Part shown: positions 25,201 through 31,200 of the stretch, in pieces
Layout: each line of letters starts with the position of its first letter
How positions within the stretch are numbered: the stretch's first letter is position 1
DNA from: Xiphophorus maculatus
Taxonomy: Eukaryota > Chordata > Actinopteri > Cyprinodontiformes > Poeciliidae
Assembly (NCBI RefSeq): GCF_002775205.1
Contig: NC_036461.1
Coordinates: 17,766,015 to 17,830,014 of the forward strand
Direction: 5' to 3'
DNA length: 64,000 nt
Notes under the pieces: model-generated
What the model was told of the DNA's origin: nothing
Database searches by the model: none
Seen by the model: only the letters and a program-made list of their open reading frames with translations
Made by a program: the position numbers and the translations under genes

Positions 25201-28200
25201 AAAAAATATAGCAAAGTTTCTTTCTTTTTTGGTTTTGAAACCCTCACGCCTTGTGTTAGGTGTAAAGGAGTCCCAAGTTTTGTATACTTTAAATGATCCA
25301 AGTGTGTTTAGATGTTAAAAAAAGGTAAATTAGCCCTACATTTGGGGCGAAACAGAATATTTGTCCTCAAGTGTTCATTGCAACATTAAAACTGAATAAT
25401 TTGTGTCTGGACTCTAGAAAAATATGGGACTTTTGATTGAAAACGTGTAGGAGCAATGTTTCATATAGCAAAACGTCAGTTAAAATGTATTAAAATAGTT
25501 CTATCAGACTTTTTTTATTTACTCTGTTGACTTTCTTAATGTCCTCTTTTAATCCTAGTCTCTTTGTTTTCATGCGTGTCTTTCCAGGCCAATGCCATGC
25601 TTGTGAAGGAAGTGGATATTGAGAAGATCAATGGGTTTGATCAGCACTATGTCGTAGCTATTAAAAGCCTGTGGGCTGATCCGGGAATCCAGGAGGCCTA
25701 CGACCGTCGCAGAGAATACCAACTCTCCGATTCCACTAAATAGTACGTGTGCTCATCTTTCTGTGTGAATGTGCATTGATGCATATGCTTTAAATTCAGC
25801 CACTTTAAGTGCAGGGTTGTGATTGTGTTCATTTCGTTCACCGGTGATGTTCTGGATGCTTCAGTGTTTGTCTTTCTTGACAGCGACGCATTTTGTCCCA
25901 ACCGGAGCAGAAGATTGTAAAACTGTGTAGGATTTTACACGTAGAGCTAGAAGTGCTCACAATGAGCCAGGCCAACGCCAGCATGGTTGGTTTGGACTTC
26001 TTCATAATGCAGTTTGTAAATTATTGCAGTAAAGTTGTTTACTTGTGTACGGACAAAATTCGTAGAAAACGTTGGCACATAATTTCTGTTGTGAATCTCA
26101 TAAGATTGAATGACGGGTGTTTCGGCTGCTTTCTGTGCAACTGCTGACATGTTGGCTCATAAAAGGTTGTGATTAAGGGGAGAAAAAATGCTTTGTGTGA
26201 TATTGGATTTGAATCTACGTACGTTTTGCAATCTTGTATTCTAAAAACTCAAAGTTAATTCTAAAAGTCATGATTTGGGGTTTGAAGAAAACTAAAAATC
26301 TTTTCCAAATTTAAAATGACAATAATTAAAGAAAGTCAGCCAGCAGCTTAAGGAGACCAGCTGTGCCTCTAATAGTTGAGCCTTTTCTACCCAATAGCAG
26401 AAACCCAATATTTACTTTAGAGTTAAAGTAAAGGAAGCAGAATACCTCCAAAGTAGACTAAATCTGCCTAGTGACCAAACCCAAGAATAATTTTTTATTT
26501 TTTATTTTATTTCCCCCAAATATAAAATGTTTGTAAAGCACAGAGCCTGGACAGAAAACTCTGAATCAAGCTCATTGGTTCTCTGCAATATACCAATCCA
26601 CATTCTTCTGGTTATTTTACTCAATTTTACTAAATAATTAGAGATAAATGTATATATATTTATATGATTCTACATTTAAAGGTTTAAATTTTTGAACCGT
26701 GCTACTCGGTGTACTGCAGTGTAAACTTGTGCTAAATGTGACCCCAGGGTACCAACCACGGGGGGAATTCAGTCACTTTATAGTGCCCCCTGGTTGTGGT
26801 TTAGCTGTATTACATCTGATTTCATATGCAGTTTGGTTCCAATGTGTGTTTGCATCTTCAATGTTTTTTTTTCTCTCTGTATGTGTGTGTGAGAAAGTAT
26901 ATGAGTCAGTCATCATATTTGTCTTCATTTCACAGTTATCCACACTGTTCATGTATATCTCCAGTTATCTTAGCGATATAGACCGTGTGACTGCGGAGGG
27001 ATACGTTCCCACCCAGCAGGATGTGCTGAGGGTCCGTGTTCCCACCACGGGTATAATAGAGTACCCCTTTGACCTGGAGAACGTCATCTTCAGGTACCCC
27101 CAAAAGCACCAGGACTGCAGCATCACCGGGGCTCGACAACATAAACCACTGATGTGAATCAGAGTAGAGACGAGAAAGCTGAAAGAGCGGACGTTTACTC
27201 TGCTCTCCCAATCAAAAGCGAGAACGTTACAAGTACATAGAGATGCACTGGTCAGACTTTTGTGGCCAGTATCAAAACGTTGGGATTTTTCACCTGCTAA
27301 TGTTGGTTAATTCTGAAATCTGACATTTTTCCTACATCATCAATTATGTGTATTAGGGCCAGAAGTGACATCACTTCCTATAAGCCAGGAGTCAGTCTAA
27401 AGCCAACGTTTTATTGCTACAACAGGCGAAATGATTAGTCGACACATTGGACTGTCTCTCGTATTGTGTATTGGCGGTTTGCGGGGCTAGCGTTACAGAA
27501 ACGGGAGTCTGTGTGTGTATATTTTAGGAAATTGGATGCTTACCTCAAGCGAATGATTTCCAAAAGGCTGCCAACGTTTCCAAATACATGACAGAAGGCG
27601 GTGCAAACACTCAAAAGGATAAATGGAGCGACTTCACCGCGCTCTGTTCTGCTTTCCTGTTTTCTGCTGAAATTCTGAATGTCCTGAAAGTCTGAAAATC
27701 AGTGAATGTTGTCACCGCTCAATTTGCATAATTAGCAGTGTCCATGCAAATATAATGCACCCTTTGAGAGAGGAATAATATTGTAGTCGAGATTAAGAGG
27801 GAATACTAGATCACCATAAAAATTTTTACAATCTGGCAGTATATTTCATTACGTTTTCTAGGGTCTGGTTTAATTTCAATGTTTGTAGAGTGAGCCTACA
27901 ACAATAATCCAGCCAAGATCAGCTTTGAGTCTTATTTGCAGTCTGGATTTGGAGGGTACGCCTCTCTTGGTCCGACTGCAGCTGACTAGTTACAGGGCAG
28001 TGTGTGATCACTTTGGGATAGAGCAGGGACCCACTGTAGCACCCACTGTAAGGGCAGAATTCACTTCAATGGTTTTGTCATTTTATAAAAGCCGGATCTA
28101 GAAGTTGTTAGTTTAAATATCTGCTAAATATTTGAGAAGGGAATTTTTGTCAAGACTTTTTTTCCCAAGTTACTTGCCATATGTCAATTTGCAGTTGACA

Positions 28201-31200
28201 CGTTTTGATTTCAGCTTTTTACAGGCAAATGGGAACAAACAGTCTTGCATAGCTAAATCAGAGTTTTTCTTCCTCAGTGAAGGCTTCAACACTGAAGAGT
28301 GTCAGTAGCTGCGTTTCCATTGCAGCTGCGTGCAAAACTTTTCCTTTTCCGCTGATGTCTACAAAACACAATTTCGCATTAGTGGTATTTCTATTTAATA
28401 AGAAATGGAATTAAATTCAAAGGTGTATAAGCTTGTACACTTGGTAAGCCATTAAAAATTGTGGCAGTGACGGATGTAAACACTTTAGAGAGATTCATAT
28501 TTCAGCCTGCTGCTCATCATCAGCCATCAGAGGAGACGTCTACGTTTCATTCAGGCATTGAACAACAAGGCCCTCATATTTGGGAGTGGCTGCGCATTGT
28601 CCAACAAAGCCAGTTCCCACAAATAAGCGTGTTGCTGTGTACATGTGTACAAGTGATTCAAATAAGTGCTTTTATTGCGGTTTTGCGAAAAACACCAATT
28701 TTGATTCTGTAGAAAAATCACTTTAATCGTAATGCAAAAAATTTTTCTTGAAAAACATTACCGTGTTTCCTCTAAACAGATTTATTTTTTTCACTCCAAT
28801 TTGCACAATTTTGAGGTTAGCAGACCTTAAAATACCTGATGCGTTCAAAAGATCAGATTTGAGTGTCCCAACTTGCCAGACCCCACTTGGGTTTAATCAA
28901 AACATTGAATCGTCCGTTTCCGGCCACCAGCAGTTTCCTCGGTGCATCTCTTTCTGTGCGACTTTGCAACACAAATTCAAAATCTGTGAAGCGACTCCAG
29001 GTTATAGATTGGAACAAACCAAGTTGTCTTATGGATGTGGACGGTAGCTGATGCAGTTAATCTGATTGGAGATCAGTGGTTTGTGTTTAGAATCGTGTTG
29101 GCCTGAGGCCAGACCTCGCTGCACTGAAGCGTGTAGGGAGCAGCCACAAAATCCCAGATAAAGACGGATTGGACAGAGATATCAAGGGTTAAACAGAAAA
29201 TCATGATGTGTGGAACTGAAGCGCAAAAAAAAAAAGAAAAAAAAAAGCCTCATAAATTGAAATCAAAATGACACTTCCTGTCCCTTTTTTTACATGGATC
29301 TTGTTTCCATACATGCCCAGTCCTTCTTTATGTGGCCCAAATGCTGCTGCAGTCACTGACACCATCTCATTGTCTGAGCCATAACCCATCAGTAACTTGA
29401 CTCCAGATTTTGTATTCGCTTTAAAAAGCTGCTGCTAGTGCTGCTGAACTTTGGGCATATTCTTGGTTTCTGGAAAGAGTACTGCTGGAGGAGTGGCACA
29501 GACTAACACTCCTTTGTTTCTGTGATGTGGTCTTTTTTTTTTTTTTTTTTGAAGCTTTTTCTACAGGACTGATCAGCGCTTTCCTGGAATTGTAGCGGTT
29601 TGCGATAATTGCCTGTCACGCTTTATGTAACTGTTTTCCTGTCTGTCTTTTTTTTTTTTCTCCCTCTTTGTTTTTTGTTTTTTTTCCTCCCCCGTTTCCT
29701 GATTGGCCTTCTCGTAGTTATCTTTCGGATCTGGATCGTATTGCCGATCCCAACTATCTTCCCACTCAGCAGGATGTACTCAGAGTGCGCATCCCCACTA
29801 CAGGAATCATAGAGTACCCCTTCGACTTGCAAAGCATCATTTTCAGGTAGAAAGAGGCCCAACCTCAAGTGGGTTTTACTTTTTTCCATCATATCCATAT
29901 AATCATTGGATTTCTTTTTTCCTGTTGGCCCTTTAAAAACATCTTTCATCCATCTCCATTAATAAAAAAACACTTTGTCTATGTCCCACTCCAATCCCGT
30001 GCTTTTCTAAATGCTTCCATGCGATCATGAAAGTGAAGTCCTTGCTAATTTAGTGTCACCTGCTGCCACCAAGAAGAATCCTACAGTGCACATAAAACAC
30101 AACAGCGAATGAACACAAAGTCCTACATTTTGCCACCCGGTCTTTCTAAATGGGTCGCCTCCTCTTTTTCTCTCTCTTTCATTTTTTTCTTTTCCTCCTC
30201 TTTTCCTCCCCGGCCGTCATAAGAAACGAGGTCGTCCTCTCTGCTGTGGAGGAATGTTATTTTGGGCAGCAGGTCCTGCAGGGCCTATATTGGCCCTGGG
30301 TCTCTGTGGACCACAGTGGACTGGGCCACCACCAGAGGGCGCCGATGCACCTGCGAATCAGGAGGAGCACAGACTCACAAAGGGAAACATTTAATTGCGA
30401 TGCAGGCATTTTTTTTTTCTGCATTAGCGGTTTCCTGAAGGATCTGACTGGATCTTTTTTTTTTTTTTTTTTTTTTTTACAATTTAGGGCTCATTAAAAT
30501 GAGCAGTGGGTGACACATTGGAAAACCTGAAAAAACCTCATGTTTTCTGTGTGCATGGCAGTGGTCAGCCGTTTGCTTTCCTGCATGTTCTCGAAATCAA
30601 CTTTTCCCGCACACCTCTGGCTCCCTCTTTCTTTCACCAAACTATTAACTCTCCCTGTCCTCTGTCTGTCCTCCATCCTTCCCGTGTCCCACTTTTCGGC
30701 TCCTCGTGCCACATCTTTTACTCTCACTTTTCATTTCCATGCATGTTCTGAAACTTGACAATTGTTGTTGTGGGAAAAGTTGACAAACCTGGTTTGAAAC
30801 TGAATCACCTTGACGTTCAATTTCCCAAGAGCTCATGCAAACCTGCATACATAGAAGATATTCATATAAGATTTACCCCTAGTGTACGGATCTGAAGGAA
30901 TGCCGCTCATTTTAAGAAACCAAAATAACACTATGAAATGTTCAGCTATGTTTTAATGATTAAGCTGTATTTTGATTAACTAAATAAGAATACCAAAGAG
31001 TTAGTATGCAATCCCCTGAAAAGTAGTAGCCTCCTTACAGATTTATTTATTTTGTCCTCTGAAAAGATTTTAGATTCAAACATAACCTTAGTAAAGACAC
31101 TTACTTCATGACAATATAAATGACATCAATAAATGGCTAAAAAGAAACTTTAAGAACCAAAACGAAGGGCTTGGACTGGCCTGGTCACAGTTTAGATATT

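Follow-up and report, generated by a model that had tools for sequence, protein, structure and literature searches.

We find that a 64,000-nucleotide (nt) stretch of the Xiphophorus maculatus genome (contig NC_036461.1; hereafter the window, to whose full length all positions below refer) carries the teleost gene gna11b with two copies of exon 4, here called 4a and 4b. The pair is real, intact, and ancient, and it has already been described; chance is not its explanation. Our preferred reading, to which we give a probability of about 0.8, is that this is an ancient alternative pair, with 4a of the GNA11 type and 4b of the GNAQ type. Alternative use, donor competition, choice by tissue, and a functional difference between the products are parts of this reading that we infer from sequence.

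Exon 4a (26965 to 27093, + strand) and exon 4b (29718 to 29846, + strand) are each exactly 129 nt long, are preceded by AG and followed by GT, share the same phase, and encode residues 160 to 202, including Arg183 and switch I. An earlier reading of this DNA from its letters alone (the sequence-only reading) had given these coordinates, together with a divergence of 39 of 129 bases and 11 of 43 residues, and all proved exact. It was also right that many differences are silent: among the 44 codons (split end codons included), 16 differ silently, 11 change the residue, and 17 are identical. Base differences number 11, 5, and 23 at codon positions 1, 2, and 3. By the Nei-Gojobori method (NG86), synonymous divergence (dS) is 1.77, which is near saturation, and nonsynonymous divergence (dN) is 0.205, giving a dN/dS of 0.116. 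Both copies encode Arg183 and the switch I motif PTTG; they differ at residues 164, 167 to 171, 173, 184, and 197 to 199. We take residues 164 to 173 to be the alpha-F/linker-2 hinge and 197 to 199 to be beta-2, and the V184I difference adjoins catalytic Arg183.

When the introns from exon 3 to exon 5 were scanned without gaps, no further full-length copy of exon 4 was found; the best other 129-nt matches there reached 51/129 to 4a and 54/129 to 4b. A candidate third copy at 29022 to 29045 was rejected. It is only a 24-nt likeness to the start of exon 4 (18/24, a score reached by 1 of 200 block shuffles), is unremarkable over 40, 60, or 129 nt, and is probably due to chance.

The sequence-only reading had known of no described pair for vertebrate gna11, and here it was mistaken. 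In their section on exon 4, Lokits et al. 2018 (PMC5896119) report the duplication in GNA11 of teleosts (GNA11a/b), gar, and coelacanth, and also in GNAQ of coelacanth and gar. They propose an origin in preGNAQ, before both early vertebrate genome duplications (pre-2R), and state that no teleost GNAQ retains the pair. Their exons 4.1 and 4.2 and the pair in the window are the same exon of the same gene, with the two copies regarded as alternatives. Like their pair, the window has two equal-length, equal-phase copies between exons 3 and 5, one of each variant type. That section makes no mention of X. maculatus, elasmobranch GNAQ pairs, donor sequences, the stop that arises when both copies are skipped, or a frameshifted gna11a copy. 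Besides this paper, no other on the gna11 exon 4 pair was among the literature matches listed. Beyond the published pair, we add tandem models for GNAQ of sharks and rays and for Gq of pancrustaceans.

Related arrangements occur elsewhere, as far as the excerpted literature describes them. Exons 7 and 8 of GNAO1 are likewise mutually exclusive duplicated exons of a vertebrate G-alpha gene, but they encode the receptor-coupling end, whereas the pair in the window encodes switch I. In OGDH (4a/4b) and U2AF1, tandem homologous exons are used as alternatives, as proposed for the window; branch-point or repression mechanisms are reported for those exons.

Gene structure and predicted splice products

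The coding sequence of gna11b lies on the + strand and spans from 4237 in exon 1 to a stop ending at 34351. Around exons 4a and 4b we place coding exon 1 (4237 to 4372, ATG to donor, coding part), exon 2 (22652 to 22836, with the P-loop), exon 3 (25588 to 25742, ending AAATA), exon 5 (32439 to 32568, with switch II and Gln209), exon 6 (32749 to 32902), and exon 7 (34161 to 34351, with the C-terminus LKEYNLV and the stop). The identification of the gene as gna11 was confirmed and narrowed to gna11b by a quick backbone tree built without exon 4 from 49 hand-chosen rows. In this tree the window gene falls within a starred teleost gna11 set (23 rows at 96) and inside its gna11b subset (9 rows, 92, unstarred). 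Its nearest backbone is that of Gambusia (99% over 316 columns).

Splicing in silico gives an uninterrupted 359-residue G-alpha with 4a alone or 4b alone, as the sequence-only reading had claimed. The Pfam G-alpha domain is full-length in both isoforms (453.8 and 455.8 bits), and both end in LKEYNLV. Double inclusion adds 43 residues, again as claimed, and yields 402 residues in frame with an Arg-to-Ser change at the junction. Because it stays in frame, decay would not remove the 402-residue product. Skipping both copies, by contrast, is self-eliminating, because a TAG arises where exon 3 (AAATA) joins exon 5 (GATGG) and translation stops after residue 158. There is also an upstream AG (26934 to 26935, + strand), 29 nt before the 4a acceptor, with a pyrimidine fraction of 0.61 before it. 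Splicing there would shift the frame, and the predicted protein would end after 173 residues.

Exon types and their relatives

Exon 4a resembles GNA11 and exon 4b resembles GNAQ. Among Protein Data Bank (PDB) chains, the best matches are GNA11 chains for the 4a peptide and Gq chains for the 4b peptide. By plain identity, 4b matches GNAQ at 38/43 residues and GNA11 at 35/43. The residues that tell the two types apart are 164, 169, 171, 197, and 198. Furthermore, in a tree of exon 4 peptides (86 hand-chosen rows, 78 of them different, 42 columns, rows with failed anchors left out), vertebrate 4b rows group with three single GNAQ-type exons in a clade (95/96) that leaves out the 4a rows.

Tandem copies of the exon are common among related proteins. 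We ran three protein searches that scored 8,000, 8,000, and 3,074 candidates, and listed the best 120 of each; proteins were collapsed at 90% identity, which hides isoforms. Of 250 proteins fetched from these lists, 85 contain the two exon 4 peptides in tandem without an insert, as matched by a regular expression. By source name, 36 belong to jawed vertebrates and 49 to insects or crustaceans. Tandem models in the gar, coelacanth, teleost gna11a, and elasmobranch GNAQ rows all place the 4a type before the 4b type, in the order seen in the window. Seven shark and ray rows labeled Gq group with eight tetrapod and teleost GNAQ rows in the backbone tree (89, unstarred); thus, cartilaginous fishes seem to retain the pair in GNAQ. 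The tetrapod rows listed have only a 4b-type exon 4 in GNAQ and only a 4a-type exon 4 in GNA11.

Some models fall outside this pattern. Proteins of 400 to 402 residues named Gq in Carassius and Oryzias were considered as teleost GNAQ pairs and rejected, since in the backbone tree they group with gna11 rows, among them Danio gna11a (91, unstarred). A Triplophysa tibetana protein named Gq (P0228) has two tandem exon 4 peptides that both look GNAQ-type. This suggests a separate, lineage-specific duplication, contrary to the published absence of the pair in teleost GNAQ. In the Fukomys damarensis GNA11 model P0229, two near-identical exon 4 peptides occur, the first shortened, which is likely an assembly or gene-model artifact. 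Three amniote predicted proteins (P0003 to P0005, 552 to 610 residues) combine a GNAQ-type exon 4 peptide with a second one that we take to be GNA14-like; they are probably GNAQ-GNA14 read-through models.

The host genome (704 Mb, 101 contigs) contains further members of the family, named here by position and best resemblance rather than by tree. Its gna11a gene (C9) holds both copies. Here 4b is intact, and 4a (L004:1464-1593) is 130 nt long and frameshifted into a stop, which could possibly be loss in progress or an error of this one assembly. In an Anableps row (P0032), the tandem of the gna11a type is open. The gnaq and gna14 loci each have a single exon 4 between exons 3 and 5. In a further gna14-like gene (C8), one exon 4 was seen in an examined locus that ends before exon 5.

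Splice signals

The donors of both exon 4 copies are weak. Donor scores were computed with an approximate matrix, not one taken from a published file. In gna11b, 4a (CAG|GTACCC) scores 3.92 and 4b (CAG|GTAGAA) 4.62. The gna11a copies are similar, at 3.99 for 4a and 4.62 for 4b, where GTAGAA is identical. The single-copy exon 4 of gnaq (GTGAGG) scores 11.28, and the exon 4 seen in the gna14-like C8 gene (GTGAGT) 12.48. Elsewhere in gna11b, donors score 5.80 (exon 1), 6.48 (exon 2), 3.76 (exon 3, GTACGT), 10.29 (exon 5, GTAAGC), and 6.98 (exon 6); exon 3 donors of other genes score 6.98 (gnaq), 6.98 (C8 gene), and 5.36 (gna14). The scores fit a competition between two weak exons. The pyrimidine fraction of the acceptor region is 0.68 for 4a, 0.84 for 4b, and 0.63 for the last exon.

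A very short intron between the copies, a mix of U2 and U12 splice sites, or decay of the double-inclusion product is one known route to exclusivity among others. No such device was seen here: the intron between 4a and 4b is 2,624 nt long, both copies have GT-AG introns, and double inclusion stays in frame. The RBFOX motif GCATG occurs nowhere within 200 nt of 4a or 4b and four times in 25743 to 32438, as counted without a shuffle control. A search for RNA pairing that might force the choice of one copy gave 54 inverted repeats. The 25 inspected are mostly runs of A or T, and a few arms would join the intron before 4a with the intron between 4a and 4b.

Weighing the explanations

We propose that a single exon duplication gave rise to 4a and 4b, most likely before the divergence of GNAQ and GNA11. 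Both copies would have been retained in fish gna11, and tetrapod GNAQ and GNA11 would have kept the 4b type and the 4a type, respectively. The usual transcript would hold one copy, perhaps picked by competition between two weak-donor exons. The resulting G-alpha-11 isoforms would differ in the hinge, next to Arg183, and in beta-2, with nucleotide-contact motifs unchanged. Double inclusion would place 43 extra residues in switch I, and regulation, not decay, would have to keep it in check.

Several results weigh against this proposal. By plain identity, 4a is barely nearer to GNA11 (35/43) than to GNAQ (34/43). The 4a rows are not one clade in the exon tree: those of shark GNAQ lie outside the rest, and single exons of rotifers sit among the vertebrate 4a rows, placements that show how little 42 columns resolve. 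No branch is starred in a DNA tree of the seven exon 4 sequences from this genome. In approximately unbiased (AU) tests, which have low power on 42 columns and used groups named after the tree was seen, an independent duplication in GNAQ is disfavored but unrejected (GNAQ exons as one clade, log-likelihood 19.7 lower, P = 0.06). A single clade of gna11b 4a and 4b is also unrejected (P = 0.155). Among the splice signals, the exon 4 donor of the single-copy gna14 gene beside gnaq scores only 5.71. The constitutive exon 3 donors are as weak as those of the duplicates (3.76 in gna11b and 4.12 in gna11a), which weakens the case for weak donors as a mark of duplicated exons. Finally, the 85 tandem models among 250 proteins either argue against strict exclusivity or reflect annotation artifacts.

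These models bear on the foremost alternative, that 4a and 4b behave as cassettes that are often both included, so that the 402-residue form would be real and might be a G-alpha whose switch I is interrupted and which is inactive. Double inclusion stays in frame, some tandem proteins of sharks, rays, teleosts, and insects are named "isoform X1" or "X2" at source, and the Ser expected at the junction from AG|T is present in most tandem models. However, most of these models are predictions, and inserting 43 residues into switch I would be expected to upset GTP hydrolysis and contact with effectors. We regard frequent double inclusion as unlikely. Because many predicted ortholog proteins include both exons, strict mutual exclusivity is only a candidate; a transcript probably carries a single copy.

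It is rather improbable that 4a is a relic on its way out, rarely or never spliced in. The frameshifted 130-nt 4a of gna11a in the same genome points that way, as do the less pyrimidine-rich 4a acceptor of gna11b and the extra AG 29 nt upstream. However, 4a of gna11b is open, its dN/dS against 4b is low, and the last exon, too, has an acceptor no richer in pyrimidines. Moreover, the window shares an identical 4a peptide with the Gambusia, Takifugu, Poecilia, and Xiphophorus rows (tandem-model junction residue set aside).

A recent duplication within gna11b, or gene conversion from gnaq, would account for the resemblance of 4b to GNAQ and for the unrejected clade of gna11b copies, but is very improbable, given that the pair stands in the same order in the gar, coelacanth, teleost gna11a, and elasmobranch GNAQ rows, that 4b is nearer to 4b of gna11a (98/129) than to exon 4 of gnaq (90/129), and that the exon 4 section of Lokits et al. 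already documents the pair for gna11 in fish other than teleosts (PMC5896119).

Pancrustacean Gq and the age of the pair

Among insects and crustaceans, Gq has the same exon in the same tandem order as fish, with a junction Ser, rarely Arg, in tandem models. Pancrustacean 4a mostly ends in FDLEEIRF or FDLDEIRF, and 4b mostly in FDLDSIIF or FDLDGI(I/V)F. Drosophila G-alpha-q reportedly has alternative exons, according to the sequence-only reading; the literature matches listed on Drosophila Gq held nothing on exon 4.

The pancrustacean pair does not group with the fish pair in the exon tree. A shared arthropod-vertebrate origin is neither supported nor rejected (log-likelihood 2.7 lower; AU test, P = 0.42, 42 columns). 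No tandem appears among the chelicerate, mollusc, annelid, rotifer, nematode, onychophoran, echinoderm, amphioxus, and hagfish rows of the matches listed, which favors separate duplications in vertebrates and pancrustaceans. In the third search (best 120 of 3,074), single-exon proteins already enter before the end of the list. It is rather improbable that a single 4a-before-4b pair passed from a bilaterian ancestor to both fish gna11/GNAQ and pancrustacean Gq, with most other lineages losing one copy. The Gq model of the moth Phthorimaea operculella (P0103) has three exon 4-like segments, the middle one divergent (PTSGINEYCF).

Functional implications

If both exons are used, one fish gna11 gene would yield two G11 switches. 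Between ape Gq and G11 (human GNAQ; GNA11 from P0049, labeled chimpanzee), 9 of the 35 residue differences fall within the 43-residue exon 4, and only 3 fall in the 157 residues after it. If the duplication predates 2R, part of the divergence between Gq and G11 would represent reciprocal loss of old splice variants.

The position of R183 within exon 4 and switch I is noted in the consulted part of a review (PMC9264989). In excerpts of a study of zebrafish mutants, gna11a and gna11b are required for lower-jaw development (PMC12045641); the words isoform and splice are absent from its main text. In fish with both copies, a knockout that targets one exon 4 might be circumvented through the remaining copy.

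Other features of the window

Upstream of gna11b lies a DDE_Tnp_4 transposase fragment (1253 to 1705, + strand, 42.5 bits). On the − strand, exons of a phospholipid phosphatase-like gene, presumably plpp2-like, occupy 57144 to 58722. One of its open frames carries a PAP2 domain (38.5 bits); a second frame falls below the cutoff.

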